Source: a virus. From it: a DNA stretch of 55,715 nt. Shown piece by piece: positions 1-55,540 of this stretch. A program made the translations under genes and the position numbers. Numbering within the stretch: the first letter of the stretch is position 1; each line of letters starts with the position of its first letter. The DNA is taken from IMG/VR virus record IMGVR_UViG_3300020193_000027, positions 1 to 55,715 of that record. One strand, given 5' to 3'. The notes under the pieces were generated by a model. The model had not been told where the DNA came from. It worked only from the letters and a program-made list of their open reading frames with translations, and searched no databases.

Positions 1-236
1 ACACTGCACACAATTGATAAATAAGGAAAAATTACTGCACACATACAACTTTATTGCAGCACACATACCCTGTTTGCTGCACACACTTGACCGTTCCCTG
101 CACACACTACTGGTTGTATATCCAGTAGTTGTACCATTTTTATACTAGTGGCCACAAACCACCAGCCTTAAACCACGAACCACGGTCAGTGGTCATTTAT
201 GCGCATAAACTCACATGTTCATAGGAATAACTAACC
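1..236. promoter_or_regulatory. Non-coding control region at the left end
   Basis: No gene is seen before position 237. The region holds five GCACACA repeats (annotated separately), an 8-bp inverted repeat ACTACTGG/CCAGTAGT at 106-129, a 5-bp inverted repeat ACCAC/GTGGT at 179-193, and a perfect 14-bp palindrome TTTATGC/GCATAAA at 196-209. A near-consensus -10 hexamer TATACT lies at 141-146, without a convincing -35 box. This density of repeats and dyads suggests a replication origin or an operator cluster for the rightward early genes. That role is inference. Confidence 0.55.
4..107 (+). repeat. Five direct GCACACA iterons
   Basis: The heptamer GCACACA occurs at 6, 37, 59, 79 and 100. Four copies are preceded by CT (CTGCACACA); the third is preceded by GCA. 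Start-to-start spacings are 31, 22, 20 and 21 bases, so the last four copies lie close to two helical turns apart, on one face of the DNA. Such phased short repeats are typical of initiator or repressor binding arrays. Confidence 0.7.
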
Positions 237-473
237 ATGAAATTCATATCCAGAACTTACGGCTATAACAAAAACATCCATCGCGTGTGCCTCGAGCCAC
301 ACGAGATGGCGTACTCGGACTATCGCATTGTCACCCTTGTCGACAACAACGGTGAACTGACCGATGACCAGTGGGCATCGATCGAGAAAGGCGAGAAACA
401 TCCCGGCCACTTCGGTGGCGAGGTCCGCGCGTTTGCCAACGGCGAACTCGAAGTCACCGTGTACACCGACTGA
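237..473 (+). CDS. Small hypothetical protein (78 aa)
   Basis: This is the first rightward gene after the left control region. An AGGAA Shine-Dalgarno-like stretch lies about 10 bases before the ATG. The product is soluble and mixed-charge, with no signal peptide or membrane segment. The C-terminal half is acidic (GELEVTVYTD). I do not recognise a family. Position next to the control region suggests an immediate-early host-takeover or regulatory protein, which is inference. A 113-aa reading frame on the opposite strand is its shadow. Confidence 0.75.
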   Translation: MKFISRTYGYNKNIHRVCLEPHEMAYSDYRIVTLVDNNGELTDDQWASIEKGEKHPGHFGGEVRAFANGELEVTVYTD

Positions 474-483
474 GGTAACAACA

Positions 484-762
484 GTGTTCAAAAACCAAAC
501 TATAGACAGCCAAGCACAACGCGACCTGGTCAACCTGCGCGTCTCACTCGCAAGGCTTGCCCAGATCGCCAATGTAGAAACCGATGAGCTATCCGTCCTT
601 GGAAAGCCCTACGAAGTTCTCTACAAGATGGCTTGTGACAACCGAAGAGGTTGGCACAGGCTCATCGTCCGAATATCCGATGCCATCGAACCAATCAACG
701 TAACCAAAAAGGCGGAGCCAACCAATGTTCCCGATAGGACAAATCGCCCCAACAGCTTCTAG
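484..762 (+). CDS. Small hypothetical protein (92 aa), GTG start
   Basis: The start chosen is GTG 484, 7 bases after a GAGGT ribosome-binding site that overlaps the stop of the upstream gene. The frame stays open further upstream to an ATG at 364, but that would overlap the previous gene by 110 bases. The product is probably mostly helical and basic at the C-terminus, with no recognisable motif. It overlaps the next gene by 38 bases, as usual in a compact early operon. Confidence 0.6.
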   Translation: MFKNQTIDSQAQRDLVNLRVSLARLAQIANVETDELSVLGKPYEVLYKMACDNRRGWHRLIVRISDAIEPINVTKKAEPTNVPDRTNRPNSF

Positions 763-1060
763 CATCATCTATTACGACGACGTTCCTGCCACTACCATCG
801 CTGAGTTCTACGAGTACGTCCTTGATAACATCAAGGACCCTGCACCAAACTTCTGTGCAGTTAGCCCAGAGCTGCCCATGAAAAGCGGAGCAGGTTGGTA
901 CGTAGGACGCTGTTGCTACAACTACGACGCTTTTTGCGGGCAATGGCGGTACGAGCCATACGACCGCACGTCGGATTACTTCTTGACCGAAGACGATGCC
1001 GCAGACCACGCGTCCTGGGCACGATGGACATTTACCAACAAGGTGGAGAAATCTCCATGA
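725..1060 (+). CDS. Hypothetical protein (111 aa), aromatic-rich
   Basis: The ATG follows a GGCGGAG ribosome-binding site inside the end of the preceding gene. The protein is acidic and rich in Tyr, Trp and Phe; its centre has the cluster GRCCYNYDAFCGQWRYEPYD. No known domain is recognised and no membrane segment is seen. The stop overlaps the next start as ATGA, implying translational coupling. Confidence 0.7.
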   Translation: MFPIGQIAPTASSIIYYDDVPATTIAEFYEYVLDNIKDPAPNFCAVSPELPMKSGAGWYVGRCCYNYDAFCGQWRYEPYDRTSDYFLTEDDAADHASWARWTFTNKVEKSP

Positions 1061-1260
1061 ACCCTTACGAAAAAGAGTCGATTATTTCTCACTACGAAGC
1101 TTTAGTAGCTTCTAACCACGCCGAAATAACCCGCCTCAACAAAACCATAAGTGATCTAAATGATAAGAAGTTCAAACTAGAAAACACTTTAATACTTGCA
1201 GAAATACTTGTATTTTCTATTGGCATAATTGTAGGTCTCTACATAGCTCGTTGGACATAA
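1057..1260 (+). CDS. Small coiled-coil/membrane protein (67 aa)
   Basis: The start is ATG 1057, overlapping the previous stop as ATGA and preceded by GGTGGAGAAA. Residues about 10-45 are charged and helical with a heptad-like pattern. Residues about 44-64 form one hydrophobic transmembrane helix (LAEILVFSIGIIVGLYIA). A long N-terminal helix before a C-terminal anchor suggests a cytoplasmic domain tethered to the inner membrane. Early-expressed membrane peptides of this type often act in host takeover or superinfection exclusion; that is inference. The stop lies directly before the hairpin promoter. Confidence 0.7.
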   Translation: MNPYEKESIISHYEALVASNHAEITRLNKTISDLNDKKFKLENTLILAEILVFSIGIIVGLYIARWT

Positions 1261-1291
1261 CGCTCGACGCTTCGCGTCTCGCGGTCAGTAT
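1261..1291 (+). promoter_or_regulatory. N4-type hairpin promoter candidate 1
   Basis: The element reads CGCTC, then the hairpin GACGC-TTC-GCGTC (1266-1278), then TCGCGGTCAGTAT. The same flanks surround a different but equally paired hairpin at 55186-55216. The complementary (template) strand contains GCGAAGC, a very stable DNA mini-hairpin. With the loop centre (1272) as -11, +1 is G1283 and the RNA would begin GG. This geometry matches coliphage N4 virion RNA polymerase promoters as I recall them. The downstream gene starts at 1324. Confidence 0.65.
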
Positions 1292-1323
1292 TATTTTTGT
1301 TCTTTAATCAAGGACTACTAACT

Positions 1324-1491
1324 ATGAAGCAGCTACCACTACCCATTTCACAATCAACCTTCGAACAACTATTCAACAAAGCTAAACAGTTTACTAACTA
1401 CTGTCTTCAACATCCTTCAGACGTATTGCTCGCAATCACACTTATCCTACTAATCGATATAGAAAACGACATCGACGAACTTGGAGAATAA
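1324..1491 (+). CDS. Small protein with hydrophobic segment (55 aa)
   Basis: The ATG at 1324 is chosen because AAGGA lies about 10 bases before it; the open frame could also begin at TTG 1297. It is the first gene after hairpin promoter 1. Residues about 32-46 are strongly hydrophobic (DVLLAITLILLID) followed by an acidic tail, so it may be a membrane peptide or an amphipathic helix. No family is recognised. Confidence 0.6.
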   Translation: MKQLPLPISQSTFEQLFNKAKQFTNYCLQHPSDVLLAITLILLIDIENDIDELGE

Positions 1492-1493
1492 CC

Positions 1494-1658
1494 ATGCGTG
1501 AGCGCAATCCACTCAATTTCAACACTGTCAACTGGGACTTGTTCACTGACTACGAACACCAGCTGACGGATCACGAATCATCGGACGTAGATCTCGAATC
1601 TACGCTCGAGGATATTAGTCGGACTAACGACCTGACTAACGAAACTAAGTACTACTAA
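1494..1658 (+). CDS. Small acidic hypothetical protein (54 aa)
   Basis: The ATG lies 2 bases after the upstream stop, with GGAGAA as ribosome-binding site. The product is strongly acidic (many Asp/Glu in the second half) and ends in KYY. No domain is recognised; small acidic early phage proteins are sometimes DNA mimics or inhibitors, but nothing here proves that. The coding sequence contains a 7-bp perfect inverted repeat, CGTAGAT/ATCTACG, at 1586-1604. Confidence 0.6.
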   Translation: MRERNPLNFNTVNWDLFTDYEHQLTDHESSDVDLESTLEDISRTNDLTNETKYY

Positions 1659-1677
1659 TCAACCACAGGTAACTCAA

Positions 1678-2322
1678 ATGACTGTTAAAGACCAAACCTT
1701 CATCCCCAATGTCATCGGCTATATGTCCGAGAAAAACACAACCATTGGCACCATCGCCAAGTTCGTCGAGTCGCAGCAAGCAAACGACCCGCTCGAGCGT
1801 ATTGCTCTTGCGTTCTTCAGCTTGCAGCGTCAGCGCCAGGCCGCAGTTCGTGCGGAACTGGAGCAGGGCGTCCCGGTCGAAGGACCTCCGTTCAAGCCGG
1901 AGCGTCTTCTCACCTTCGTTCAGTCCGTGATGAACGGCGTCTGTTGGGCAGCGCGTCGTCTGTACATTGCAAACGACAAGCCTGACCTCGGCAACGGCAT
2001 CGACTTCTCGCAAGACGTCGGTGACTGGGTAGGTGTCTACGCCAGCAACGAGCACATTCCGTCGCTTGTTGACAGTGACTTCATGGCACTGAACAAACTG
2101 CAGTCACTTCTGGCTGCCAAGATGGCGTATCTCACCGACATCAGCCCGCTCTACGTGTTCGAACAACGCACACGTGACGAGCACGGCAACTGGTACGTGG
2201 ACAAGACTTGTGAAAACTTCCACGAAGCCATGCCTGTTATGGACTCGATTGTCTCCCGTCTCCAAGAGGAACAGGAAGCAAACGAAGTGAGTAACTTCAT
2301 GAAGCAGCTCCGTGCTGCGTAA
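1678..2322 (+). CDS. Hypothetical protein (214 aa)
   Basis: The gene begins at ATG 1678, about 8 bases after AGGTAA, and ends upstream of a strong terminator. The predicted product is soluble and helical, with several amphipathic helices (FVESQQANDPLERIALAFFS near residues 30-50) and a C-terminal charged helix. I recognise no catalytic motif. GC-rich codon use, unlike the AT-rich small genes that follow, and the large size for this region suggest a well-expressed conserved protein. Confidence 0.75.
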   Translation: MTVKDQTFIPNVIGYMSEKNTTIGTIAKFVESQQANDPLERIALAFFSLQRQRQAAVRAELEQGVPVEGPPFKPERLLTFVQSVMNGVCWAARRLYIANDKPDLGNGIDFSQDVGDWVGVYASNEHIPSLVDSDFMALNKLQSLLAAKMAYLTDISPLYVFEQRTRDEHGNWYVDKTCENFHEAMPVMDSIVSRLQEEQEANEVSNFMKQLRAA

Positions 2323-2381
2323 TTAACCAACAACCAATGAGGTTGAGGGAAGGCCGGTTGTTGCCTTGACACAAAGCAACC

Positions 2382-2423
2382 AAAAAAGCCTCCTACTCCT
2401 GAACCGGGTAGGGGGCTTTTTTT
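2382..2423 (+). terminator. Rho-independent terminator
   Basis: A 9-bp stem GCCTCCTAC/GTAGGGGGC (one G-T pair), extended by A/T pairs, encloses an 11-base loop and is followed by seven T residues. It closes the first early transcription unit (to 2322) before an AT-rich gene group. Confidence 0.9.
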
Positions 2424-2454
2424 ATGTAACTAGTTTAGAAAATAGGTAATTGCT

Positions 2455-2775
2455 ATGTACCAAACCCAACATGACTTTGAAGAGGATAAAATACTTAGAG
2501 CTAATACTAGCTACCGTGCCCTATGGGCCAGTGTTCTTTTACAAGCTATACGAGACGTAGACGACAAAGAAGAAAGGTACGAAGCCTTAAATTACTTACA
2601 CAGTTTTTCTGAAAAAGAACGTTCATTTAATTGGATTTGCGACATGCTTGACCTAGACACAGAGCGCATCCGCACACTGACACTAACACACACAGGCCGC
2701 CGTAAATTATTAGGCGGCAATGTAGGCAATAGAACTCTTGGTGTAAAAAGATACAAACCACAGGATACAAAATAA
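2455..2775 (+). CDS. Hypothetical phage protein (106 aa)
   Basis: The ATG follows AGGTAATTGCT. The protein has a helical N-terminal half (YRALWASVLLQAIRDV) and a segment FNWICDMLDLDTERIR that resembles a short helix-turn-helix seen in many uncharacterised phage proteins. The C-terminus is basic (Arg/Lys rich), consistent with nucleic-acid contact. I know the pattern from phage genomes but no proven function. The stop overlaps the next start (TAATG). Codon use is AT-rich. Confidence 0.75.
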   Translation: MYQTQHDFEEDKILRANTSYRALWASVLLQAIRDVDDKEERYEALNYLHSFSEKERSFNWICDMLDLDTERIRTLTLTHTGRRKLLGGNVGNRTLGVKRYKPQDTK

Positions 2776-2948
2776 TGTCTTCCTTCTATACTGAATACGA
2801 TGTAGGAAAACTTAAATACCAAATCAAACAACTAGAAGAAGAACTCAAACAGCAACTTTCACCAGACCCCAACTTTATGGTTTTTGAAATTTTAATATGC
2901 ATAACCTGCACTTTGGCCGGTTATGTCTTAGGTGTTATTACTACTTAA
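2775..2948 (+). CDS. Small coiled-coil membrane protein (57 aa)
   Basis: The start overlaps the preceding stop as TAATG, so translation is probably coupled. Residues about 10-28 form a charged coiled coil (LKYQIKQLEEELKQQL) and residues about 36-56 a single transmembrane helix. The design matches the 67-aa protein at 1057-1260: cytoplasmic coil then C-terminal anchor. No function is recognised. Confidence 0.6.
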   Translation: MSSFYTEYDVGKLKYQIKQLEEELKQQLSPDPNFMVFEILICITCTLAGYVLGVITT

Positions 2949-2970
2949 ACATGTAAACGTCCCTTAGTTT

Positions 2971-3396
2971 ATGCAAACTTTTTTACCATATCCCAACTAC
3001 GCCCAATCAGCACTAATCCTAGACCGCCAACGCCTTGGAAAGCAGCGGGTAGAGTGCAAACAAATCCTGCTCGCTATGCCAAAGACCACTGGCGGATGGC
3101 GCAATCACCCAGCTACCAACATGTGGCGCAACCACGAAATAGAGCTATGTCGGTATGGAGCCGCCATGTGCCGTGAATGGATATCTCGTGGGTATAACGA
3201 CTCACTGCTGCCGTTCTTCGAAGACGCAGCAGATCAGTACAGCTCCGATGGACGCAATGACGCACCGCCCGCCTGGCTAGGCGAAGACGCATTGCACGCG
3301 TCGCATCGCAGCAACCTATTGCGCAAAGACCCTGTGTATTACGCTCGCTACAACTGGATCGAACCATCAAACTTACCCTACGTGTGGCCCGTATGA
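2971..3396 (+). CDS. Pyrimidine-dimer DNA glycosylase-like (MSMEG_6728/T4 EndoV-type) protein, 141 aa
   Basis: The N-terminus MQTFLPYPNYAQSALILDRQ and the later HASHRSNLLRKDPVYY segment match my memory of the MSMEG_6728 family, which is related to T4 endonuclease V-type pyrimidine-dimer glycosylases. In T4 the enzyme binds UV dimers, cleaves the glycosylic bond with the N-terminal amine and nicks the backbone. Here the N-terminus is MQT rather than T4's MT, so chemistry may differ. Length equals the T4 enzyme (about 138 aa). The stop overlaps the next start (ATGA). The fold assignment is more certain than the activity. Confidence 0.7.
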   Translation: MQTFLPYPNYAQSALILDRQRLGKQRVECKQILLAMPKTTGGWRNHPATNMWRNHEIELCRYGAAMCREWISRGYNDSLLPFFEDAADQYSSDGRNDAPPAWLGEDALHASHRSNLLRKDPVYYARYNWIEPSNLPYVWPV

Positions 3397-3641
3397 ATCT
3401 TGAAAAACATGTCAAAGCAGCCATTGAAAACCTAGTTTCAGATGGCTTCAATCCAGAGAAACTCGACAATTTTCTCAAGAACTTTACGCTAGCAATAGCG
3501 TACGTGCTTGGTTCAGTACGAGCATCAACTAATAACCAAATCACCCAAGAAGAAATAGATTATTTAATCGACGGACTAGGGGACTTCATGAAACGAACAT
3601 CACGAGACATTGAAAACGAATTTAAGTCCAACGTTCACTAA
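3393..3641 (+). CDS. Hypothetical helical protein (82 aa)
   Basis: The start is ATG 3393, overlapping the glycosylase-like gene stop by four bases. The product is acidic and apparently all-helical (LEKHVKAAIENLVSDGF, QEEIDYLIDGLGDFMKR). No catalytic motif, zinc ligand set or membrane segment is seen. Tight coupling suggests co-expression with the repair-like gene, without showing a shared job. Confidence 0.65.
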   Translation: MNLEKHVKAAIENLVSDGFNPEKLDNFLKNFTLAIAYVLGSVRASTNNQITQEEIDYLIDGLGDFMKRTSRDIENEFKSNVH

Positions 3642-3643
3642 TC

Positions 3644-3850
3644 ATGAGCACTCTATGCGTTGAGTGCCAGGAACGCAGCGTGCCCAACGCACGAAAAGCG
3701 CTCGGCTACGAGCTCTGTCTACAGTGCGGCGAAGCGTCTGCTCGCAGAGTCAAACACACCATACTGCCATTACATAAAAGCAACTACATGGTCCCAGCTA
3801 ACCGGGAAGAAATCAAAGGCTTCAATAATAAAGGAGGCTTTCACCGATGA
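3644..3850 (+). CDS. Small zinc-finger protein (68 aa)
   Basis: Two CxxC pairs are visible, CVEC near residues 5-8 and CLQC near residues 25-28, separated by about 17 residues. That is a treble-clef or DksA/TraR-like zinc ribbon. The remainder is basic. It could bind DNA, RNA or RNA polymerase; the sequence does not decide. The start lies 2 bases after the previous stop. The end overlaps the next gene as ATGA and carries that gene's strong AAAGGAGG ribosome-binding site. Confidence 0.7.
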   Translation: MSTLCVECQERSVPNARKALGYELCLQCGEASARRVKHTILPLHKSNYMVPANREEIKGFNNKGGFHR

Positions 3851-4080
3851 GCATCATTTGGCTTGTTAAAGGAACTAAAGAGTTTGATCCTGGAGAATAC
3901 TCAGAAATATTCGAATGGGGATTCACAGACGTAACGTCTGCCGAAAGAACTAAACGATACTGCGAAAGAATTTACCCATCCGCTAGATGGGAAACTACCG
4001 TACTTCGTGTCGATAGCTACAGCGAACTTGACATCACTCTTGGGTATTTAATCAGCCAACAACAAGCAGAGGAGATCTGA
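3847..4080 (+). CDS. Hypothetical protein (77 aa)
   Basis: A very strong AAAGGAGG precedes the ATG. The product is a small acidic protein beginning MSIIWLVKGTKEFDPGEYSE, with mixed alpha/beta character and no known motif. It is overlapped by four bases with the zinc-finger gene and followed after 2 bases by the next gene. Confidence 0.7.
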   Translation: MSIIWLVKGTKEFDPGEYSEIFEWGFTDVTSAERTKRYCERIYPSARWETTVLRVDSYSELDITLGYLISQQQAEEI

Positions 4081-4082
4081 CT

Positions 4083-4352
4083 ATGGTTTGGAACCTTCGC
4101 TTTATTCATTTCGAAGATCCGTTTACCGACGATAGTTATATCGAACTAAGTGAAGTCTTTTACGACTCAAACGAAAACCCTGAAGGATACGCTCGCCCCC
4201 ATCTTGTATTTGACTCAGCTGACGAAATCGAAATGTTCATTGAACGAGTTCGTGCTGCTGCCACAAAACCGTTTCTTACCGAAAACGAATTCCCAAAACG
4301 AGAAGACTTAGGCGATGAACAGATCTTCTACGACACTCAAACCGAAAACTAA
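4083..4352 (+). CDS. Hypothetical acidic protein (89 aa)
   Basis: GAGGAG sits about 8 bases before the ATG. The protein is strongly acidic throughout and looks alpha/beta (beta strand MVWNLRFIHF, then a helix near DEIEMFIERVRAAA). No family is recognised. Small acidic early proteins can be inhibitors of host DNA-binding proteins, but nothing here identifies a target. Confidence 0.7.
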   Translation: MVWNLRFIHFEDPFTDDSYIELSEVFYDSNENPEGYARPHLVFDSADEIEMFIERVRAAATKPFLTENEFPKREDLGDEQIFYDTQTEN

Positions 4353-4524
4353 GTACTTTGGCTGGGACTACCGCAAAAACGTCCAACTACGTATGACAGG
4401 TAAAGAATGGCATATCTATACAAAACGAGAGCGTTTCAACTATGAACGTGGGAACGACGCCGTCACAGGAAATGCTTGCGAGATCTGGCTTGATGGTACA
4501 GACATCAATCACAAAAAACCTTAA
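4315..4524 (+). CDS. Hypothetical basic protein (69 aa)
   Basis: The frame is open from ATG 4315 to 4524 and overlaps the preceding gene by 38 bases. The product is basic with several aromatic residues (KYFGWDYRKNVQLRMTGKEW). The first 12 residues may not be translated if a later start is used; the ribosome-binding site at 4315 is weak. No family is recognised. Confidence 0.5.
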   Translation: MNRSSTTLKPKTKYFGWDYRKNVQLRMTGKEWHIYTKRERFNYERGNDAVTGNACEIWLDGTDINHKKP

Positions 4525-4636
4525 TAAATCTTGGTACTGGCGCTTAATAAACGTAATGTTTGACACACCTTACGATTGGCGCTGGGTTCCACCGCCAAAC
4601 TGGCGTGCCAGTCGAGGCCACCGAGATTACTGGTAA
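4493..4636 (+). CDS. Possible small Trp-rich protein (47 aa)
   Basis: An open frame continues to 4636 past the end of the upstream gene. Its C-terminal part is distinctive (DTPYDWRWVPPPNWRASRGH) and not typical of random frames. Starts at ATG 4442, 4493 or 4556 are all possible and none has a good ribosome-binding site; 4493 is a compromise. No function is recognised. Confidence 0.35.
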   Translation: MVQTSITKNLNKSWYWRLINVMFDTPYDWRWVPPPNWRASRGHRDYW

Positions 4637-4657
4637 TTATCTATATAGGACACATCA

Positions 4658-4924
4658 ATGAAATATTCAGAAAAGGAAACTAAAATAATCATTGAAATTA
4701 CCCGTGCTTTATCTGTAGAACCAGAGTTCGACGGATCTAAAATACTCTGGCGCAAAAACAAATACAAAAACCATGACGTACTGATTGACTTTGAGAAGGA
4801 TGAACTTACCGTCGACAACAGTGACGGCATGTACATAAGCTATTCAAATTCACTTCTCTATCAGATAGCTGGGATTGCTCTTTTGAACGAACTTGCTTTC
4901 GTAAACAATTCTATTAACAATTAA
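4658..4924 (+). CDS. Hypothetical protein (88 aa)
   Basis: The gene starts at ATG 4658 after TAGGACAC. The product is an acidic alpha/beta protein (KYSEKETKIIIEITRALSVE at the N-terminus), AT-rich in codon use and without known motifs. It lies in a run of small early genes with short gaps. Confidence 0.65.
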   Translation: MKYSEKETKIIIEITRALSVEPEFDGSKILWRKNKYKNHDVLIDFEKDELTVDNSDGMYISYSNSLLYQIAGIALLNELAFVNNSINN

Positions 4925-4949
4925 AGAACCCTACAGGATCTAACTAACT

Positions 4950-5252
4950 ATGGGCATATTAGAAGGCGCACTAGCCGCCATCGCAATAATATTTCTATTA
5001 CTAAAGCTCAACCTTAAACGCATCGCTAAACACGACATTTTTCTTGACATCTGCCTGACGTTCTTTTTCATCTGGATATTCGCCGGCACTTTCGCTGGCA
5101 TGATGGTAGGCCTTTGGGCCGGTGCCTTCATCTCAATATTCCTGTTCATTGCAAAACGACACGTCAAACACGAGGAACTGCGTTGGGTTCGCATACGCAG
5201 TTTCCCGTACCGCAAACTTGCTTGGGTCGAAGTAATCGACACCCAGAAATAA
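4950..5252 (+). CDS. Inner-membrane protein with 2-3 TM helices (100 aa)
   Basis: Three hydrophobic stretches are visible: residues about 4-20 (LEGALAAIAIIFLLLKL), about 28-50 (DICLTFFFIWIFAGTFAGMM) and about 52-68 (GLWAGAFISIFLFIA). A basic C-terminal tail follows, consistent with a cytoplasmic end by the positive-inside rule. It is not in the lysis cassette, so holin is unlikely; superinfection exclusion or membrane remodelling is possible. It is the last small early gene before the structured intergenic RNA candidate. Confidence 0.7.
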   Translation: MGILEGALAAIAIIFLLLKLNLKRIAKHDIFLDICLTFFFIWIFAGTFAGMMVGLWAGAFISIFLFIAKRHVKHEELRWVRIRSFPYRKLAWVEVIDTQK

Positions 5253-5279
5253 CGCGCCGCCTAATCAGCAGCTAGTCTG

Positions 5280-5459
5280 ACCCGGACGATGAGAAGCGCC
5301 ATGATAGGCGCGGGTGGTTCGGCAACAGCTTACCCGTAGCAATACGGATAGCCAATGATGCCTAGGCAGTAATGCTTACCGGCTAACCAACCGGGCGTTG
5401 GCAACACGACAGTCTCCTGTGGCCGTGAAGCGGATGCAAAGTTACCGCCGCACAGGGGA
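5280..5459 (+). ncRNA. Candidate structured RNA upstream of the MoxR operon
   Basis: The 238-base gap between 5252 and 5491 has no credible ORF but a chain of perfect stems: GCGCC/GGCGC (5296-5311) inside ACCC/GGGT (5280-5315); CCGTA-GCAA-TACGG (5334-5347); AGGCA-GTAA-TGCTT (5364-5377, one G-T pair); CCAAC/GTTGG (5387-5401); and a 9-bp closing stem TCTCCTGTG/CACAGGGGA (5413-5459) enclosing GCGG/CCGC. Two loops are GNRA tetraloops, typical of folded RNAs. It could be a cis leader for the MoxR operon, a trans-acting RNA or a ribozyme. I do not recognise a known riboswitch or ribozyme consensus. Confidence 0.6.
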
Positions 5460-5490
5460 AGCACCCTAATTCACAACAAAGGACCAACTA

Positions 5491-6489
5491 ATGCGTACTA
5501 TTCGTCCCTCTCAACTCAAGTCAGAACTCCGTGCCAACGCGCTTGCTCGCGTGCCAACCATGATCTGGGGTCCTCCAGGTCTGGGTAAGTCGCAAATTGT
5601 TTATCAGTTTGCTGAAGATCTTTTAGCTAAAGTCTTTGAGCTTCGTGCCAACCTGTTTGATCCTGTCGACGTTCGCGGCGGCCTCAAGGTAGTTGAGCAA
5701 GCCGATGGTTCATACCGCACAAGATACGGTGTGCCCGAGGATTATCCGGAAACCAACTACACCGGCACGGTAGTGCTGCTTATTGACGAGTTGCCCAATG
5801 CTCCAAAAGCCACACAGAACGCACTGCTGCAATTAACTCTTGATCGCAAGATTGGCACGTACGTCCTTCCGGAAAACACCATCATTGCAGCAGCTGGCAA
5901 CCGAGCGCAAGATCGAGCCGCGATCCACGAAATGCCAACCCCGGTCAAGAACCGGTTTGCGCACTACACTCTCGAGCCGAACATCGACGACTGGGTAGCC
6001 TGGGCTTTGCAACGCAACATTGACGACAGCATCGTGTCGTTCTTGCGTTACCGCCCTGGTCTCCTGCACAGCATGGACAACGCGGACTACGCGTTTCCGT
6101 CGCCCCGTACCTGGGAGATGGTCAACCGCAAACTGCCGTTCATGGAAGACATGTTCTACGGCGTTTCGTCTTTGATTGGCGACGGCCCTGCAGGCGAGTA
6201 CCTCGCACATCGTGCAATCCGCAAGGATCTGCCGGACATCGACGATCTCATGCAGAACCCGTCAACCACACGCGTACCTGGAGATCCTTCGACGCTTTAC
6301 GCCATTGCTGGCGCACTGGCATCGAGGGTCGATCAAGGCAACTTCGACGCCATCATGCGTTACAACCGACGCATGCCTCGTGAGTTCCAAGTTGTATTGA
6401 TTCGCGACTGCATCGCAAAAGAGCGTCAGCTCCTGAATCACCCGGCGTTTAAATCATGGACGTCTGCCAACGTAGACGTTGTTATCTAA
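5491..6489 (+). CDS. MoxR-like AAA+ ATPase (332 aa)
   Basis: Walker A GPPGLGKS lies at about residues 26-33 and Walker B VVLLIDELPNA at about 92-102, followed by a sensor-like AAGN segment near 131-134. This is the layout of MoxR/RavA-type AAA+ proteins, which act as ATP-driven remodelling chaperones, typically with a VWA-domain partner. A VWA protein lies two genes downstream (7180-8310), which supports the call. AAAGGACC precedes the ATG, directly after the structured RNA candidate. The target in a phage is unknown; virion assembly, host-protein remodelling or DNA-modification support are possible. Confidence 0.85.
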   Translation: MRTIRPSQLKSELRANALARVPTMIWGPPGLGKSQIVYQFAEDLLAKVFELRANLFDPVDVRGGLKVVEQADGSYRTRYGVPEDYPETNYTGTVVLLIDELPNAPKATQNALLQLTLDRKIGTYVLPENTIIAAAGNRAQDRAAIHEMPTPVKNRFAHYTLEPNIDDWVAWALQRNIDDSIVSFLRYRPGLLHSMDNADYAFPSPRTWEMVNRKLPFMEDMFYGVSSLIGDGPAGEYLAHRAIRKDLPDIDDLMQNPSTTRVPGDPSTLYAIAGALASRVDQGNFDAIMRYNRRMPREFQVVLIRDCIAKERQLLNHPAFKSWTSANVDVVI

Positions 6490-6500
6490 CGGAGAACCCT

Positions 6501-7178
6501 ATGGCTTCAGTAAGAATGACCAATGACTTACGTGACACAATTTATAACAAAGCTATGGAAGCTTTTAATTCGGCGCGGCCAGAGCCTAAGCCAACTACAG
6601 AGCTTACTAATCTTGTTAGAGATGCTATATTATCTTCGGAACCGTACAAAGCGTTAAAAGATCAATTTGATCGACAACACAGCTACTCTTTTAATTCGTT
6701 TGGCGGACCAACAAAAGGACTCTCTAGGGAAGACTGCGCCCGTTTGTATCTCAGCAGCAAAACAGGATTCCACTTAAATACCACCGAACAACTCGTATTC
6801 GAGTTTGTTCCAGCTTTTTCTATTTATAGGACAAACAGCTGGAACATGCCCGAGTTCAACTTTGACGAACTTGGGCCACAAGCTCAGTCTCAACTGTTAA
6901 ATGGCTGCAAACAAGCAGCACTCGACAAGCATCAGTACAGCATCGAAAGAGCAGACTACTCCACCAAGATTCGAAGCTTGCTCAAGCAATGTTCGACAGT
7001 AAAGCAGCTGCTACTTGCCTGGCCTGCTGGTGAGTCTTTCGTTCCTCACGAAGCCAAGACTCGCATGTACGAGCGCATCACCCGTGTTGCGCGCGCACAA
7101 CAAATCAAGGAAGAAGTTCAGTTCGACGACGCATTTGTCAACGAAGTAGTACTCACAGCAAAACTCATAGGAGGTTGA
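6501..7178 (+). CDS. Hypothetical protein (225 aa) between MoxR and VWA genes
   Basis: ATG 6501 is chosen because CGGAGAACCCT precedes it; the frame runs further upstream into the MoxR gene. The N-terminus (ASVRMTNDLRDTIYNKAMEA) recalls phage proteins annotated as Nmad5, a putative nucleotide-modification-associated domain, but I cannot confirm that by reading. The rest is helical, with no clear catalytic motif. It sits 11 bases after the MoxR gene and 1 base before the VWA gene, so the three are probably one functional set. Codon use is more AT-rich at the start than in its neighbours. Confidence 0.65.
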   Translation: MASVRMTNDLRDTIYNKAMEAFNSARPEPKPTTELTNLVRDAILSSEPYKALKDQFDRQHSYSFNSFGGPTKGLSREDCARLYLSSKTGFHLNTTEQLVFEFVPAFSIYRTNSWNMPEFNFDELGPQAQSQLLNGCKQAALDKHQYSIERADYSTKIRSLLKQCSTVKQLLLAWPAGESFVPHEAKTRMYERITRVARAQQIKEEVQFDDAFVNEVVLTAKLIGG

Positions 7179-7179
7179 T

Positions 7180-8310
7180 ATGTCTGCCGAAGGCGCGCTA
7201 GTCAAAGCGCGTTCGCAGCTGTTAATGGACCAGCCGTTCTTCGGAACGTTGGCCATCCGTCTTCGCCCTGTGCAACGTGAAGATATTAAGACCGCAGCTA
7301 CAGATGGTATTCATCTGTACTACGATCCTGCTTATATCCTTAAGCTAGATCCAATGCAGCTTCGTGGGCTCCTGGCTCACGAGGTTCTGCATTGTGTATT
7401 TAACCATCAGACACGTAGACAAGAACGTGATCACCAGCTGTGGAATATTGCTTGCGATTACGCAATCAACGACCACCTGATCGAATCAGGATTCATCCTG
7501 CCAAAAGGCGCTCTTTTAGACCCTGCCTACAAAGGTATGGGCGCGGAAGAAATTTACAACCTTATCAACAAAGAGCCCAGCAAACGCCCCAAGCCCTGCG
7601 CCTGGGGTATCGTGCTTGACGCAACAAGCGGCAGCCTTGAAGCAGGCTCTGCTGCTGAACAAGAATCCAACTGGCAGATCGCCGTAGGCGAAGCTGCTGC
7701 TGTAGCCAAAGCACGTGGCAAACTCCCTGGTAACATCGAGCTCTTTATCTCGGAAATACTTCAACCCAAGGTTGACTGGCGCACGGTCCTCTGGCCGTTT
7801 TTCACGGAACTTAACCGAGACGACTATTCGTGGCGCAAGCCTCACCGAGCATGGATTTCAGAAGATGAATATCTTCCGTCTATGTACCAAGAGATCTGTG
7901 GCAAAGTTGCAGTCGTCAACGATTCTAGTGGATCCATTACAGACGAGCAGGGCGCTCAGTTCATCTCTGAAGTAGATGCAGTCATGGCTCAGGTCCAGCC
8001 GTCATCAATTGTCTGGATCCAAGCAGACGCCCAAGTCCAAGACGTAAAAGTTCTTGATACGGGTGAACGCCTAAAAGCGTCACAGCTTCCTTCGTTCAAA
8101 GGGCGTGGCGGTACAGCGTTTACGCCAGCGTTTGAATATTTGCGCGACAACCACCCGGACGTACAAGCTATTGTTTATCTTACTGATTTAGAAACAGGCG
8201 CAGAAGACTTTGCGTCCGCTGAAGAAGCAGCATGCGCTCCAACGCTATGGGTATCCGTCAGCAAAAACCTTGTAGCACCATTTGGCGAAACAGTTTATTT
8301 GTCTGCTTGA
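7180..8310 (+). CDS. Metallopeptidase-like/VWA protein (DUF2201 type, 376 aa)
   Basis: The N-terminal domain contains HEVLHCVFNH at about residues 66-75, an HExxH zinc site as in the DUF2201 N-terminal putative metallopeptidase domain. The C-terminal part has a VWA-like MIDAS sequence NDSSGSI near 246-252 and later VYLTDLETG, matching the DUF2201 VWA-like domain. Such proteins pair with MoxR ATPases, as here. GGAGGTTGAT precedes the start. The MIDAS binds a metal and a client; the HExxH could be catalytic or structural. It closes the MoxR module. Confidence 0.8.
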   Translation: MSAEGALVKARSQLLMDQPFFGTLAIRLRPVQREDIKTAATDGIHLYYDPAYILKLDPMQLRGLLAHEVLHCVFNHQTRRQERDHQLWNIACDYAINDHLIESGFILPKGALLDPAYKGMGAEEIYNLINKEPSKRPKPCAWGIVLDATSGSLEAGSAAEQESNWQIAVGEAAAVAKARGKLPGNIELFISEILQPKVDWRTVLWPFFTELNRDDYSWRKPHRAWISEDEYLPSMYQEICGKVAVVNDSSGSITDEQGAQFISEVDAVMAQVQPSSIVWIQADAQVQDVKVLDTGERLKASQLPSFKGRGGTAFTPAFEYLRDNHPDVQAIVYLTDLETGAEDFASAEEAACAPTLWVSVSKNLVAPFGETVYLSA

Positions 8311-8591: not shown

Positions 8592-8735
8592 GAGCCCGAC
8601 GATTTCAAAGTCCTCGAACTTCTTTCATCCGGCTATCCAATCCAAGAGATAGTCGAAAAGCTCGAAGTCTCTGAAGAATACGTACGTCAGATCATAACCA
8701 TTATAGAAGACACGGTGCATGACTACCAAGGCTAA
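8580..8735 (+). CDS. Small helix-turn-helix protein (51 aa)
   Basis: An open frame runs from GTG 8580 (overlapping the upstream stop as TAGTG) to TAA 8735, overlapping the DNA polymerase start by 17 bases. The residues VLELLSSGYPIQEIVEKLE then VSEEYVRQIITI follow the spacing of a LuxR/sigma-like helix-turn-helix (LLSSG...I..KL.VSE..V...I). This is a plausible tiny DNA-binding regulator placed directly before the polymerase gene. No upstream ribosome-binding site is clear, so coupling to the preceding gene is assumed. Confidence 0.5.
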   Translation: MGFFEPDDFKVLELLSSGYPIQEIVEKLEVSEEYVRQIITIIEDTVHDYQG

Positions 8736-10548
8736 AACTCTGCTGACCCTCGACTTCGAGACTTATTACGACGCCAAGGTCAGCCTTACTAAAATGACCA
8801 CAATGGAATATGTCAAGCACCCCATGTTTAAAGTCTGGGGTGTTGGCATCAAAGTCAACGACGAGCCTGCTGAATGGTACAGCGCAGACGAAGCCGAAGA
8901 CGCCTTGCAGCAATTCGACTGGAATGACATTCAGCTGCTGTGCCACAACACGCTCTTCGACGGTTATATCTTGGCCATACACTACGGTATTACACCGACG
9001 TACTACCTGGACACCGCTGCAATGGCACGCGGTTACTTCCCTGGTCTTAAAGCTTCATTGAAAGACACCAGCATTCGCCTTTTTCCAAACGACGAGTCAA
9101 TGCGAAAAGGCGACGATCTGATCAAAGCCAAAGGCCTGTTCGATCTCCCACCAGAAATTGAAGCTGACCTGGCCAAGTACTGTTTACAGGATGTCGAACT
9201 TACCCACGCTATCTATCACAAGATGCTCGAGGGCTATCCAAACTCTGAGCTTGATCTCATCGACCTTACTACGCGCATGTTCTGTCGGCCAGTCTTGAAG
9301 ATAGACCGAGAACGATTGATCGCGTACTACGATCAAGAAACCAAAAGCACTGAAGATCTGATTACAAGCTCCGGTGCAACGCGCGAGATTCTCGCCAGCA
9401 ACGATAAGTTTGTAGCTCATCTGGCTACGCTTGGCATTACTCCACCAACCAAGCGCAGTCCAACAACCGGCAAACAGATCCCGGCGTTTGGCAAAAACGA
9501 CGCAGGCTGGAAACAACTACGAGCGCTGTATCCACAGTACGAGTCCCTTTGGAACGCCCGTGCAGCTGCTAAGTCCCGCATCAACGAAACGAGGTCCCGT
9601 CGGTTCCTCGATGCAGTCCATGAAGACAACACAATCAGTGTTCCGCTGCGCTATTACGCAGCTCATACCGGTCGTTTTGGCGGTACCGAAAAGATTAACC
9701 TGCAGAATCTACCTCGAGGTAGCGAGCTACGCAAGTGCCTAATCGCACCAGACGACCACTTCCTTTATGTTGCTGACCTGTCCAACATTGAAGCGCGAAT
9801 GCTTGCTTGGTTAGCCGGAGAAACGTCGCTGCTTGAGCAGTTTAGGATAGGTGATGATATATACAGTAACTTCGCTAGTCGTATTTACAACAAGCCGATT
9901 AATAAAAAAGACAACCCAACCGAGCGATTTGTAGGCAAGACCGCAATCCTCGGTCTTGGTTATGGCATGGGCCATAACAAATTTAAGCTGACATTAGAAT
10001 CAGGTGCATCAGGTCCAACTACACAGATCTCCGAATCAGACGCAATTAACATTGTGTTCACCTATCGATCTACTTACTCCCAGATTACACTGCTTTGGGC
10101 ACGGCTCGAGAACCTTCTGAAACAGTCACTTCATCGTGACAATCATGGAACTAGATACAGAGACATCCTTACCGTTACAGATCGGGCGTTGGTTTTGCCC
10201 AACGGGATGTCGCTTAAATACCACAACCTCGAACCGTCCCCCACGGGCCTGACCTATCAGACCCGCAATCAGATGCAAGAAGCGACATACGGCGGCCGAA
10301 TAACCGAGAACGTTATCCAAGCATTGTCCAGAATAGTAATTACCGACAGCCTACTTAGGCTAAGCCGCTCCATTGACGGCGGCCAAATAGCGCTCACCGT
10401 CCACGACGAAATCGTCATTGTAGCACCGGATAAAGATCCTGATGCTACAATGAAGTTGATCATTAAGGATCTATGCACACCTCCGCCCTGGGCACCAGAT
10501 TTACCTCTAGCAGCCGAAGGCGGATACGACAGGAAGTACAGTAAGTAA
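8719..10548 (+). CDS. Family A DNA polymerase with 3'-5' exonuclease (609 aa)
   Basis: Exonuclease motifs are intact: LTLDFETYY (Exo I, D12/E14), CHNTLFDG (Exo II, about 75-82) and YCLQDVELT (Exo III, about 154-162). Polymerase motifs follow: YVADLSNIEARMLAWL (motif A, Asp near 352), KTAILGLGYGMG (motif B, about 407-418) and VHDEI (motif C, near 561). The protein is the phage replicative polymerase: proofreading, no 5'-3' exonuclease domain. At 609 aa it is a little shorter than T7 gp5. The stop overlaps the csrA-like start (TAATG), so the two are translationally coupled. Confidence 0.95.
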   Translation: MTTKAKTLLTLDFETYYDAKVSLTKMTTMEYVKHPMFKVWGVGIKVNDEPAEWYSADEAEDALQQFDWNDIQLLCHNTLFDGYILAIHYGITPTYYLDTAAMARGYFPGLKASLKDTSIRLFPNDESMRKGDDLIKAKGLFDLPPEIEADLAKYCLQDVELTHAIYHKMLEGYPNSELDLIDLTTRMFCRPVLKIDRERLIAYYDQETKSTEDLITSSGATREILASNDKFVAHLATLGITPPTKRSPTTGKQIPAFGKNDAGWKQLRALYPQYESLWNARAAAKSRINETRSRRFLDAVHEDNTISVPLRYYAAHTGRFGGTEKINLQNLPRGSELRKCLIAPDDHFLYVADLSNIEARMLAWLAGETSLLEQFRIGDDIYSNFASRIYNKPINKKDNPTERFVGKTAILGLGYGMGHNKFKLTLESGASGPTTQISESDAINIVFTYRSTYSQITLLWARLENLLKQSLHRDNHGTRYRDILTVTDRALVLPNGMSLKYHNLEPSPTGLTYQTRNQMQEATYGGRITENVIQALSRIVITDSLLRLSRSIDGGQIALTVHDEIVIVAPDKDPDATMKLIIKDLCTPPPWAPDLPLAAEGGYDRKYSK

Positions 10549-10754
10549 TGTCGCGCTTGGTTCTAACAAGACGTCTTGGGCAATCAGTCGTTATCCATCA
10601 CGACAACAAAACCATTGCCACTGTAAAAGTATCCCGCGTAGATAGGTATAATGTACGACTGGCCTTTGTCGCCGAACCTACGATCGTTATAGATCGACAG
10701 GAAATATTCGACGAAGAAAATCCCTGTACCATCAAGGAGAAAAAGCAAGACTAA
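10548..10754 (+). CDS. csrA: CsrA/RsmA-like RNA-binding regulator (68 aa)
   Basis: The sequence follows CsrA strand by strand: LVLTRRLGQSVVI at the N-terminus (host consensus LILTRRVGETLMI), a central VKVSRVDRYNVRLAF, then IVIDRQEIF in place of VHREEIY. The N-terminal Leu-Thr-Arg-Arg and the late Arg (R before QEI), which form the RNA-binding surface, are kept. CsrA dimers bind GGA motifs near ribosome-binding sites to block or protect mRNAs. The gene overlaps the polymerase stop (TAATG). It could retune host Csr circuits or time phage translation. Confidence 0.88.
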   Translation: MSRLVLTRRLGQSVVIHHDNKTIATVKVSRVDRYNVRLAFVAEPTIVIDRQEIFDEENPCTIKEKKQD

Positions 10755-10772
10755 TGCTTTTCCGGAGATTTT

Positions 10773-13319: not shown

Positions 13320-13330
13320 GTATAGTCACT

Positions 13331-14080
13331 TTGAAAAACTTAACGCAGAGCTCCAGGCCGGACTCTGACGACGCTTTCCAAAAACCCGACAAATTCGGCC
13401 CTGTTTCTACGTGGTCTTATTCGGCTCTCAAGACTTTCGAAGAGTGTCCGTACAGGATCTTCATCCAACGCGTTAAAAAAATCCCTGAGCCCCCAAGCTC
13501 AGCAGCTGATCGCGGTACCGCGATACACAAACTAGCTGAAGAGTTCATAAAAGGCGAGATCGGCGAGCTTCCGCCAGAACTGGCCAAATTCGCAGACGAC
13601 TTCCACGAGCTCCGCCACCTGTTTAGCGAAGCCAAAGTAGAAGTCGAAGGCGAATGGGGATTCAGCATAGAGTGGGAAGCTGTAGGCTGGATGGTGCCGC
13701 AGACCTGGGCACGCATCAAACTTGACGCAATAGTGCATCAGGACGAGACCAGCGCCCGAGTCATCGACTTTAAGACAGGCAAAAAGTTCGGCAACGAAAT
13801 ACATCATTCACAGCAATGCTTGTTGTACGCTATTGCCGCTTTCTTCCGATTTCCGCTTATCGAGCTTGTGCAAACCGAGCTTTGGTATCTGGATAAAAGA
13901 GAGCGGACTGTTCGCGCGTTTACTAGAACAGAAGCTATGCAGTTCGCACCAAGCTTCCATCGCAGGGGCGTCATCATGACAACCTGCGAAGACTTTGCCC
14001 CGACGCCTAGCAAAGACTCATGCAAATGGTGTCCGTACAGCAAAGGTGAGCACCCTGAGTGTACTTGGGGGATTAAATAA
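13331..14080 (+). CDS. PD-(D/E)XK nuclease with Fe-S cysteines (Cas4/RecB-like), 249 aa
   Basis: Motifs occur in RecB/Cas4 order: RGTAIHK (His near 66), RIKLDAI (Asp near 138), VIDFKTGKK (D-x-K near 145-147) and a QxxxLYA helix (near 160). One Cys near residue 39 (EECPYRIF) and three C-terminal Cys (CKWCPYSKGEHPEC, about 230-243) match the 4Fe-4S cage of Cas4/AddB-type nucleases. The start is probably TTG 13331; no ATG is in frame until the middle of the gene. A strong terminator follows. Its likely role is end resection in phage recombination. Confidence 0.85.
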   Translation: MKNLTQSSRPDSDDAFQKPDKFGPVSTWSYSALKTFEECPYRIFIQRVKKIPEPPSSAADRGTAIHKLAEEFIKGEIGELPPELAKFADDFHELRHLFSEAKVEVEGEWGFSIEWEAVGWMVPQTWARIKLDAIVHQDETSARVIDFKTGKKFGNEIHHSQQCLLYAIAAFFRFPLIELVQTELWYLDKRERTVRAFTRTEAMQFAPSFHRRGVIMTTCEDFAPTPSKDSCKWCPYSKGEHPECTWGIK

Positions 14081-14091
14081 GTTCTCCTTTT

Positions 14092-14118
14092 AGCTCCTCT
14101 AAATGAGGAGCTTTTTTT
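14092..14118 (+). terminator. Rho-independent terminator
   Basis: The perfect 8-bp stem AGCTCCTC/GAGGAGCT with loop TAAAT is followed by seven T residues. It separates the polymerase-primase-nuclease unit from the gp88/SNF2 unit. Confidence 0.92.
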
Positions 14119-14155
14119 GCGGGTATACATAGCCCACGTAGCCCAAGGAGAACTT

Positions 14156-14332
14156 ATGGCTCTTTTCATGAGGTTGCTTGCAGCCTTAGAAATAGTTTTA
14201 TTTCTCAAAAAGTTACGAGAACAAAATGACTCAACTGCAAATTATCAACGTTCAACTTCTATCCAATCGAACAAGATACCGCAAGAGCATCAAGCCCCCC
14301 AACGGCAAGATGCTCAAACCGGGAAGCAGTAA
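14156..14332 (+). CDS. Small hypothetical protein (58 aa)
   Basis: ATG 14156 is preceded by AAGGAGAACTT, a strong ribosome-binding site. The N-terminus is a short hydrophobic helix (ALFMRLLAALEIVLFLKKL), possibly a signal-anchor or amphipathic helix; the C-terminal half is Gln/Lys-rich and looks disordered. It overlaps the following gene by 107 bases if that gene starts at 14226, which suggests that one of the two starts is wrong. No function is recognised. Confidence 0.5.
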   Translation: MALFMRLLAALEIVLFLKKLREQNDSTANYQRSTSIQSNKIPQEHQAPQRQDAQTGKQ

Positions 14333-14909: not shown

Positions 14910-14951
14910 TATTAGTTCCGCTAATATCGAAACCTTACTGAGATATTTCTA

Positions 14952-54190: not shown

Positions 54191-54419
54191 CGTTTGTTAC
54201 ATCCAAGAACACGAAAACTGGTGCCTTATCTCCAAGCTTGCCGAGCTCAATCTTCATTAAATACTCTTTGAGGCTAGCGGCCTTAGGCTCCAGACCGAGG
54301 GCAATGGCCTCGGCCAGATAACCGTCGTACACCAGCACCTCGTTCCCGCCCCTAATGGCGGTACCAATAACGGCCGCTTCAAAGCCCTCTATAGCAAAGA
54401 CCTGGACTTTTTGCAGCAT
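54141..54419 (-). CDS. Hypothetical protein upstream of TerS (92 aa)
   Basis: The product has a beta/alpha pattern (VQVFAIEGFEAAVIGTAIRG) and a helical middle (YLAEAIALGLEPKAASLKEY). No motif is recognised. It lies between the HNH and terminase genes, which suggests a packaging accessory role; this is inference from place. Confidence 0.65.
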   Translation of the reverse strand: MLQKVQVFAIEGFEAAVIGTAIRGGNEVLVYDGYLAEAIALGLEPKAASLKEYLMKIELGKLGDKAPVFVFLDVTNVGDITDSVREPGTPVH

Positions 54420-54440
54420 TTATATTAGCCCCCCTAATGC

Positions 54441-54923: not shown

Positions 54924-55251
54924 TCGTGGTTCGTGGTCTGTTGAAGAGTCGATTGCCGACCCCCTGCGTCAACAGAGTCGCCAGAGTATGCCAGAAAAAA
55001 TTTTGCAAAAAAATTTTTGGATTTCACTTTTCGATGGTGGGGAGGGGGTGACTCAAAAACCCTATCTATACTGCTCACACATTCTCTCCCCTCTCCCAGA
55101 GCTAGGACCCCCGATCCCCGGAATCCAGATCTTGGAACCTTGTTTTCATCGTGTTCTTGGAACCTTGTCGCCCAGTAACCCCGGACGCTCATCGCTTCGC
55201 GATTCGCGGTCAGTATCTATTATGTATCTACACTAACCAGGAACAACTACC
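54924..55251 (+). promoter_or_regulatory. Divergent control region
   Basis: These 328 bases lie between the first leftward gene (start 54923) and the first rightward gene (55252). They hold a 13-mer CGTGGTTCGTGGT (54925-54937), whose complement occurs at 172-184 before the left-end early genes; A/T tracts near 54995-55022; a G/C-rich part; a direct repeat CTTGGAACCTTGT at 55131 and 55156 (25 bases apart); and the hairpin promoter at 55186. It probably drives both arms. A 94-aa leftward frame here is not accepted. Confidence 0.6.
55186..55216 (+). promoter_or_regulatory. N4-type hairpin promoter candidate 2
   Basis: It reads CGCTC, hairpin ATCGC-TTC-GCGAT (55191-55203), then TCGCGGTCAGTAT. 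Compared with the site at 1261, the flanks and central loop are identical but two outer stem pairs differ while pairing is kept. The template strand again carries GCGAAGC. With loop centre 55197 as -11, +1 is G55208 (RNA begins GG). Three rightward genes follow from 55252. Confidence 0.65.
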
Positions 55252-55395
55252 ATGAATGAGAAAGTTTTCTACAATGTCGACTCTTGCTACGACGAAGTCG
55301 GTCGCGAGTTAGTTTTTGATTTTCCAGAACCTCAGGAAGAAGTAGAGGTGACCTGGGAAGAGCTCGAAAAGGAGTTTGAGGCTATGGGAATTTAG
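55252..55395 (+). CDS. Small acidic protein (47 aa)
   Basis: ATG 55252 follows AGGAACAACTACC and lies 44 bases after the predicted start of hairpin promoter 2. The product is strongly acidic (FPEPQEEVEVTWEELEKEF): about 16 of 47 residues are Asp or Glu. A short early acidic protein may inhibit a host nucleic-acid-binding enzyme; no family is recognised. Confidence 0.65.
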   Translation: MNEKVFYNVDSCYDEVGRELVFDFPEPQEEVEVTWEELEKEFEAMGI

Positions 55396-55397
55396 CC

Positions 55398-55535: not shown

Positions 55536-55540
55536 CTATC

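Follow-up and report, generated by a model that had tools for sequence, protein, structure and literature searches.

Candidate template-strand hairpin elements in front of early genes in a group of freshwater phages

The window analyzed here is the entire 55,715-base stretch of an IMG/VR record that derives from a podovirus-like phage. It encodes a P22-type portal, a terminase, a family A DNA polymerase, a DUF5906 primase, an SNF2 helicase and a MoxR ATPase. The late genes are oriented leftward, and the early and replication genes are oriented rightward. A near-identity search of window bases 1-25000 against named phages returned no match. At the protein level, the DNA polymerase reached at best 34% identity with named phages (Rhizobium phage RHph_TM3_14A and the Pseudomonas phages KPP25 and phiR18), and the portal reached 41-42% (KPP25 group and Acidovorax phage AP1). 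Close and moderate relatives within IMG/VR, identified by their DNA polymerase, amounted to 43 loci, and the members that bear the hairpins described below are freshwater phages. The genes for the MoxR ATPase, a DUF2201 metallopeptidase/VWA protein, DNA polymerase A, the DUF5906 primase and the helicase occupy window positions 5491-8310 and 8719-16301. This order from MoxR to helicase resembles the middle region of N4, whereas the virion module differs. A pyrimidine dimer DNA glycosylase (Pyr_excise, E 1.6e-23) is encoded within the early block at 2971-3396.

Blast comparison with a near-identical relative record of 56,112 bases (G001) revealed that the two window ends lie next to each other in the genome, separated by about 1.2 kb that the window lacks. 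Since the ends are adjacent in G001, both elements described here belong to one early region, in which site 2 comes first and site 1 follows about 2.7 kb downstream. Both ends of G001 map to overlapping window positions (10485-10800) and, hence, the window and G001 together appear to span the whole genome.

The original prediction had pointed to two matching 31-bp elements, at 1261-1291 (site 1) and 55186-55216 (site 2). Both were recovered letter for letter on the plus strand, and a search for CGCTC-N4-CTTCG-N4-TCGCGGTCAGTAT that allowed for 3 mismatches at most found only these two places in the window (100 shuffles gave a mean of 0.01 and a maximum of 1). Their stems, GACGC/GCGTC and ATCGC/GCGAT, are indeed paired at 5/5 positions each and differ by two compensatory pairs. 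The prediction had further described a CGCTC flank and a 13-base tail next to this stem. The letters were right, and the view of a separate flank had to be revised, since CGC of the flank and GCG within the first five tail bases can pair with each other across a TC/TC mismatch. Because this outer stem is paired at 3/3 positions in all listed contexts with five inner pairs (see below), stem and flanks form one 23-nt hairpin, CGC-TC-N5-TTC-N5-TC-GCG, followed by GTCAG, in place of a 5-bp stem flanked on both sides. The hairpin is composed of 3 bp, the TC/TC mismatch, 5 bp and the TTC loop.

At site 1 the hairpin CGC-TC-GACGC-TTC-GCGTC-TC-GCG (1261..1283, plus strand) starts immediately behind the stop codon of the preceding ORF; read on the template strand it is CGC-GA-GACGC-GAA-GCGTC-GA-GCG. 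The GTCAG tail (element positions 24-28) follows at 1284..1288 and a weaker downstream motif, TNTGT (element positions 36-40), at 1296..1300, both on the plus strand. The start codon of a 55-aa early ORF (1324..1491, plus strand) lies 40 nt after this hairpin. The ORF has no Pfam match, is present in all 6 hairpin-bearing relatives compared and is absent from 4 sister genomes and KPP25. Site 2 has the same layout on the plus strand, with the hairpin CGC-TC-ATCGC-TTC-GCGAT-TC-GCG at 55186..55208, the GTCAG tail at 55209..55213, the downstream motif as TATGT at 55221..55225, and a 47-aa early ORF (MNEKVFYNVDSCY...) at approximately 55252..55395, the start codon of which lies 43 nt after the hairpin. 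Upstream of site 2, also on the plus strand, we found a conserved block (approximately 55132..55178) that contains TGGAACCTTGT two times, with CGCCCAGTAACCCC after the second copy. At the divergent leader in both clades, two direct TGGAACCTTGT repeats are spaced by about 25 bp, and CAGTAACCCC comes after the second one. Right behind site 2, blastn found no counterpart of about 325 bases (window 55241-55564) in G001, a record that is otherwise near-identical, and early genes seem to have been exchanged just behind this hairpin.

The place of a third hairpin, present in G001 (10609-10639) as a degraded copy, lies at 181..192 on the plus strand of the window, where a 21-nt gap is found and the GGTCAGTG tail remains. 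The gap would be consistent with loss of a palindrome. Since the window lacks a hairpin that a close relative keeps, at least one copy is dispensable. Without the hairpin, the GTCAG tail combined with TNTGT was not enriched in the window (4 matches versus 6.29 expected), nor was CGCGGTCAGTAT with up to 3 mismatches (48 versus 46.1 expected). The folding energy of the elements is unremarkable (DNA MFE between -5.6 and -6.8 kcal/mol; compared with shuffles, z is around -1.0 to -1.1), and the case for the hairpin, as built from sequence comparison, stands on covariation and not on energy.

Loss of the stem in related phages had been named as one finding that would refute the prediction. We ran this test and the outcome favors the stem. 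A stem-free pattern, CGCTC-N5-TTC-N5-TCGCGGTCAG, matched 49 viral stretches. Across all viral loci compared, eight stem types (GACAC, ATCGG, ATCGC, GCCCC, GACGC, CGCGC, GTACC and GCTCC) were present in 33 contexts and all were paired at 5/5 positions; the remaining 2 viral matches had 0 and 1 pairs. As a control, the same pattern matched 30 times in 84,980 bacterial and archaeal genomes, with 0, 1, 2 and 3 pairs in 9, 11, 8 and 2 matches, so that the 32 non-hairpin matches (2 viral, 30 bacterial or archaeal) reach 3/5 pairs at most. A pattern with freer flanks gave 113 contexts among the matches listed, of which 83 had fewer than five inner pairs and 30 had all five. The outer stem was paired at 3/3 positions in every one of these 30 listed contexts (27 as CGC/GCG, 3 as CGT/ACG), and the 69 contexts with fewer than three inner pairs, again among the matches listed, had 0, 1, 2 and 3 outer pairs in 35, 20, 11 and 3 cases. 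Inner and outer stems thus covary.

We then merged near-duplicates, which left 15 distinct hairpins, the degraded L003 site included. Among their 120 cells 98.3% were paired, compared to 70.1% in shuffles, and none of 500 shuffles reached this value. Two-sided changes were found in 32 cells (8.6 in shuffles) and a one-sided change in 1 cell. Two of the five covariation measures were only modest, being reached by 60 and 35 of the 500 shuffles. The GTCAG tail is kept, letter by letter, in 14, 15, 15, 14 and 15 of the 15 distinct hairpins, and the TNTGT motif at T36 in 11/15, at T38 in 13/15 and at G39 in 12/15. Variants of the stem are found in one relative, G005: CGTG-TC-CCCC-TTC-GGGG-TC-CACG, with the mismatch displaced by one, CGCGC-ATCCT-TTC-AGGAT-GCGCG, a fully paired 10-bp form without mismatch, and CGC-TC-GCGC-TTC-GCGC-TC-GCG, with a 4-bp inner stem. 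On the sequence evidence, the 10-pair frame with its GAA triloop (template strand) is conserved as structure and not as sequence, which supports the view of the original prediction that the hairpin itself is selected.

These data also bear on an operator for an ordinary dimeric repressor or activator, which would be a palindrome recognized in double-stranded form. An inverted repeat upstream of genes is what such a site would look like. A dsDNA operator keeps the sequence of its half-sites, yet the 15 distinct hairpins keep their pairing and change their letters, and a fixed mismatch lies within the palindrome. We therefore regard an operator as highly improbable. A blind scan for template-compatible 10-pair hairpins did not discriminate, as most genomes showed no surplus relative to their reversed sequence (real/reversed: window 6/8, G005 5/2, KPP25 5/1, AP1 3/9, N4 7/3). 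In these scans no element was seen in the more distant relatives L073-L075, and none was found in G006, a record that begins inside terL and may lack the early leader.

The elements are located where the early gene block begins. In a list of 42 sites from both clades, compiled by hand, 40 are followed within 95 nt by an RBS-preceded ATG that opens an ORF of at least 30 aa. The distance is 37-53 nt at 39 of them and 8 nt at one. Among random positions on the early strand, 16% are followed by an ATG of this kind within 95 nt. A second type of sister site, kept outside this list (L062+755, L064+1874, L066+2916, L076+2502, L077+1587 and L078+2469), did not show an RBS-preceded ATG within the stretch of about 70 nt that was examined. 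A covariance model, built partly from these same sites, gave 25 matches in 10/35 records at E <= 1e-4, on a single strand within each record, and at this threshold no match in N4, KPP25 or AP1. The more complete records carry 2 to 4 copies per genome. No sigma-70-type promoter was found on the plus strand at 53500-55715, and the sole match on the plus strand of 1-8000 lies at 4658, with none near site 1; both scans used the E. coli consensus, which may not be that of the host. An intrinsic terminator was considered and rejected, as the sites lack a T-run behind them and are both missing from the lists of terminators.

The hairpin could instead serve replication, as a single-strand initiation (ssi) or nicking site for a primase, a primosome or an HUH nickase. 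Single-strand initiation and relaxase sites are typically ssDNA hairpins with a conserved 3' tail, a layout that the elements would share. Furthermore, the phage encodes a DUF5906 primase-helicase and two mapped sites adjoin the divergent region. However, a replication site would need neither several copies per genome nor a narrow distance to a start codon at each of them, and a general scan of the proteins turned up no HUH enzyme. We consider a role in replication unlikely.

Further evidence came from a sister clade with DNA polymerases 62-64% identical to that of the window. The same upstream block (TGGAACCTTGT ... CAGTAACCCC) precedes the first early gene there, and the sister form was reached solely via this shared block. 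It consists of arms around the core TC-G-TTC-C-TC, with 7 arm positions per side, which gives 23 nt again. A de novo search of the sister genomes for repeated hairpins with a shared tail yielded no family, because the inner stem is a single pair in this clade. An argument against a virion polymerase that took the sister clade to be hairpin-free was withdrawn, since the sister clade has hairpins.

A scan with free arms gave 29 stretches; the early-leader context was judged by eye, and further distinct sites were added. We left out L066-9055, L073-8403, L078-4842, L241+6987 and L241+9033 (5/16 rows), as well as a repeated context of the L263 type with L280, L264, L272, L275 and L287, as these are not early leaders. 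Duplicates and L242, which has a 2-pair inner stem, were also omitted. The resulting 15 distinct sister arm pairs comprise 105 cells, 74 of them Watson-Crick (permuted mean 48.5; 0/20,000), in sites that are related by ancestry, were typed by hand and were picked by context with the arms already visible. In the coding-strand reading the other cells are T.C (12), A.C (12), G.A (2), G.T (0) and other (5); G.T would be expected in 9.65 cells. On the template strand, T.C becomes A.G and A.C becomes T.G. Allowing for these pairs, the template strand fits in 98/105 cells (permuted mean 74.1; 0/20,000) and the coding strand in 76/105 (permuted mean 63.7; 1 in 20,000). Mismatches of the template type (G.A or G.T on the template strand) account for 24/31 (0.77 versus 0.45 permuted; 0/20,000) and the opposite type for 2. 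The difference between template-type and coding-type is modest, as 2% of permutations reach the observed value. In the window's clade, 28/29 non-Watson-Crick cells are T.C and the remaining one is a G.T in the degraded site.

Together, these patterns point to selection acting on the template strand, and thus to a DNA hairpin rather than a hairpin in the mRNA leader. A sense RNA hairpin, acting in the leader on stability or translation, would explain why every site lies in a leader, and as far as Watson-Crick pairs go the coding strand could form the stem just as well. RNA helices usually pass through G-U intermediates. Against this reading, coding-strand G.U is missing from the sister clade in the numbers given above, with A.C and U.C taking up 12 cells each, and the single G-U among the 120 cells of the window's clade belongs to the degraded site, next to the 1:32 ratio of one-sided to two-sided changes. 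Rfam also returned no family match to the elements. A sense RNA hairpin therefore appears extremely improbable. An RNA hairpin of the opposite strand, formed in a leftward antisense transcript, would fit the bottom-strand G.A and G.U pairs and the GAA loop. It would need neither the conserved letters 3' of the hairpin on the coding strand nor the fixed rightward distance to a start codon, and we regard it as very unlikely.

Tandem G.A pairs are stable in DNA. The heptamer GCGAAGC, which the original prediction had noted, is present on the template strand in both window stems, and the GAA loop is of the d(GCGAAGC) type, described in a portion of PMC6582339 as an extraordinarily stable mini-hairpin with a sheared G-A pair. 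This likeness concerns a structural motif and not a system. Moreover, the closing pair varies in relatives and the full heptamer is not required.

Template-strand hairpins in front of early genes are known from N4, and the original prediction had classed the elements as promoters of the N4 type, which in N4 are read by the virion RNA polymerase (vRNAP). For N4 promoters, sections of PMC4496689 report conservation from -17 to +1, a template-strand hairpin, a required loop-closing pair and loop bases, contacts at -8 and -11, and the participation of gyrase and SSB. Hairpins of 4-5 bp with 3-nt loops are given for LUZ7/LIT1 and Pectobacterium N4-like phages in parts of PMC3715699 and PMC6027278. 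The same filter that we used here recovered N4's own promoters in NC_008720 at 90, 559 and 4548. Our elements share with N4 P1-P3 the template-strand hairpin and a GNA-type loop of three purines, and N4 P1 has the identical GAA loop. The C-G closing pair of the window sites, their place in early-gene leaders and the 11 nt from the loop centre to GG are further similarities. In this respect the predicted geometry was correct: with the loop centre at T1272, +11 is G1283 and the GG is in place, as in N4's promoters. The prediction of G1283 as +1 fared less well. G1283 is the pairing partner of C1261 and lies inside the outer stem, and GG is not kept in the sister clade. In N4, by contrast, four bases are unpaired before +1. 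The N4 stem has 5-7 bp, whereas a 23-nt, 10-pair frame with a template-strand G.A mismatch pair is found here, with 1 inner pair before the mismatch in the sister clade. Both window sites have -8G and the C-G loop-closing pair, but among the 15 distinct hairpins these are kept in only 6/15 and 10/15, respectively. Finally, the genome has about 56 kb rather than 70-75 kb.

An N4-type vRNAP system was not borne out by the search for a polymerase. A profile built from 11 Schitoviridae vRNAPs found none in 15 virus records of the group; the three positive controls that it did find (N4, a Litunavirus and pYD6-A) had also been used to build it. A search with PF00940, which covers T7-like RNAP and the heterodimeric RNAPII (gp15/gp16), gave matches in 0/15 virus records, with N4 RNAPII above and N4 vRNAP only below the cut-off in the controls. 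RNAP beta domains, beta-prime domains and sigma-70 region 2 were each found in 0/10 records, several of which are fragments. Comparing seven large window protein sets to the vRNAP profile with hhalign gave probabilities of 0.2% or less, a motif-B-like regex returned nothing convincing, and a regex for the DPBB-type RNAP motif returned nothing. Small early ORFs make up the proteins that are present in hairpin-bearing relatives and missing from the sisters; since the sisters also carry hairpins, this is not a list of reader candidates. In AP1, a 119-aa ORF (OM049504 5665-6024) is annotated as virion-encapsulated RNA polymerase, which looks like a wrong label, judged by its length.

A true N4-type system would require a virion-borne single-subunit RNAP that reads the hairpins and has diverged beyond recognition. 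The template-strand hairpin with its GAA loop, the N4-like spacing from loop to GG and the location at early genes would all suit such a system. A potential candidate is a 1922-aa ejection-type virion protein with a HEIGH zincin motif (window 34610-40378), which is common to both clades and is encoded among the virion genes, a position like that of vRNAP in N4. Its C-terminal part is shared with structural proteins of the KPP25 group. An AlphaFold model of residues 480-1320 was poor (pLDDT 53.7) and had no PDB match at E <= 0.001, which is weak evidence against a polymerase. In light of the negative profile searches, the variable closing pair and the absence of -8G from most hairpins, we consider an N4-type polymerase decidedly unlikely.

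Our best reading of the sequences is that the elements would be hairpin-dependent early promoters that work like those of N4 and are read by host RNAP or by an unrecognized enzyme. Since neither a phage nor a cellular-type RNAP was found, host RNAP is the most likely reader by elimination. We hold it about evenly balanced that the element is a template-strand 23-nt DNA hairpin that marks, or is essential to, the start of early transcription without belonging to an N4-type vRNAP. The more specific proposal, that host RNAP, alone or with a hairpin-binding factor, starts at a template-strand hairpin made of Watson-Crick, G.A and G.T pairs and that no virion RNAP is involved, is put forward tentatively, as a possibility that falls short of probable. 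We envisage that negative supercoiling of the incoming DNA might extrude the hairpin and that a single-strand-binding protein could keep the coding-strand arm open. RNA polymerase would then use the template-strand hairpin together with the GTCAG...TNTGT stretch and start early mRNAs slightly downstream. The reader would be host RNAP, perhaps with a hairpin-binding factor from phage or host. Overall, the elements appear to constitute a variant of hairpin-type elements for early control.

The nearest analog with host RNAP is provided by the Frpo or ssi promoters of conjugative plasmids. Passages of PMC11541004 describe Frpo as a folded single strand that lets host RNAP start the early genes of incoming DNA, with stimulation by SSB, and state that the fold presents -35, -10 and UP elements. 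Unlike in Frpo, no -35, -10 or UP elements were seen by eye in the 23-nt hairpin, the separate linear sigma-70 scan being the only other search for them, and these phages presumably inject double-stranded DNA. The promoter early stem-loops of T4-type phages are cassettes of stem-loop and promoter between small early genes that are gained and lost. Our elements resemble them as cassettes that are repeated among small early genes and show gain and loss. They differ in that the stem-loop of the T4-type cassettes sits beside an ordinary sigma-70 early promoter.

The hairpin promoters of N4-like phages are tied to the giant vRNAP in PMC4496689 and PMC12633501, and a passage of the latter terms vRNAP unique to Schitoviridae. 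Searches of open-licence PMC papers listed no phage that has such promoters and lacks vRNAP. A group with template-strand hairpins and no detectable phage RNAP separates the promoter from the enzyme. If the proposed reading is true, hairpin promoters would not be confined to the N4 vRNAP, and early genes would have a second, independent way to sense supercoiling. The resulting, testable question is whether an extruded DNA hairpin can serve as the start signal for host RNAP, or for which other protein. In addition, the restriction of G.A and G.T pairs to one strand offers a sequence-based way to tell selection on a DNA hairpin from selection on an RNA hairpin.

Two hairpins also precede the first early gene of KPP25, phiR18 and YMC17. 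They are identical across the three phages and, hence, give no covariation signal. In KPP25 (L233 6023-6072; record approximately 24022-24071), one of them has a fully paired 9-bp stem and a GGA loop, and the other, a 10-pair TTC hairpin with T.C mismatches, overlaps the RBS.
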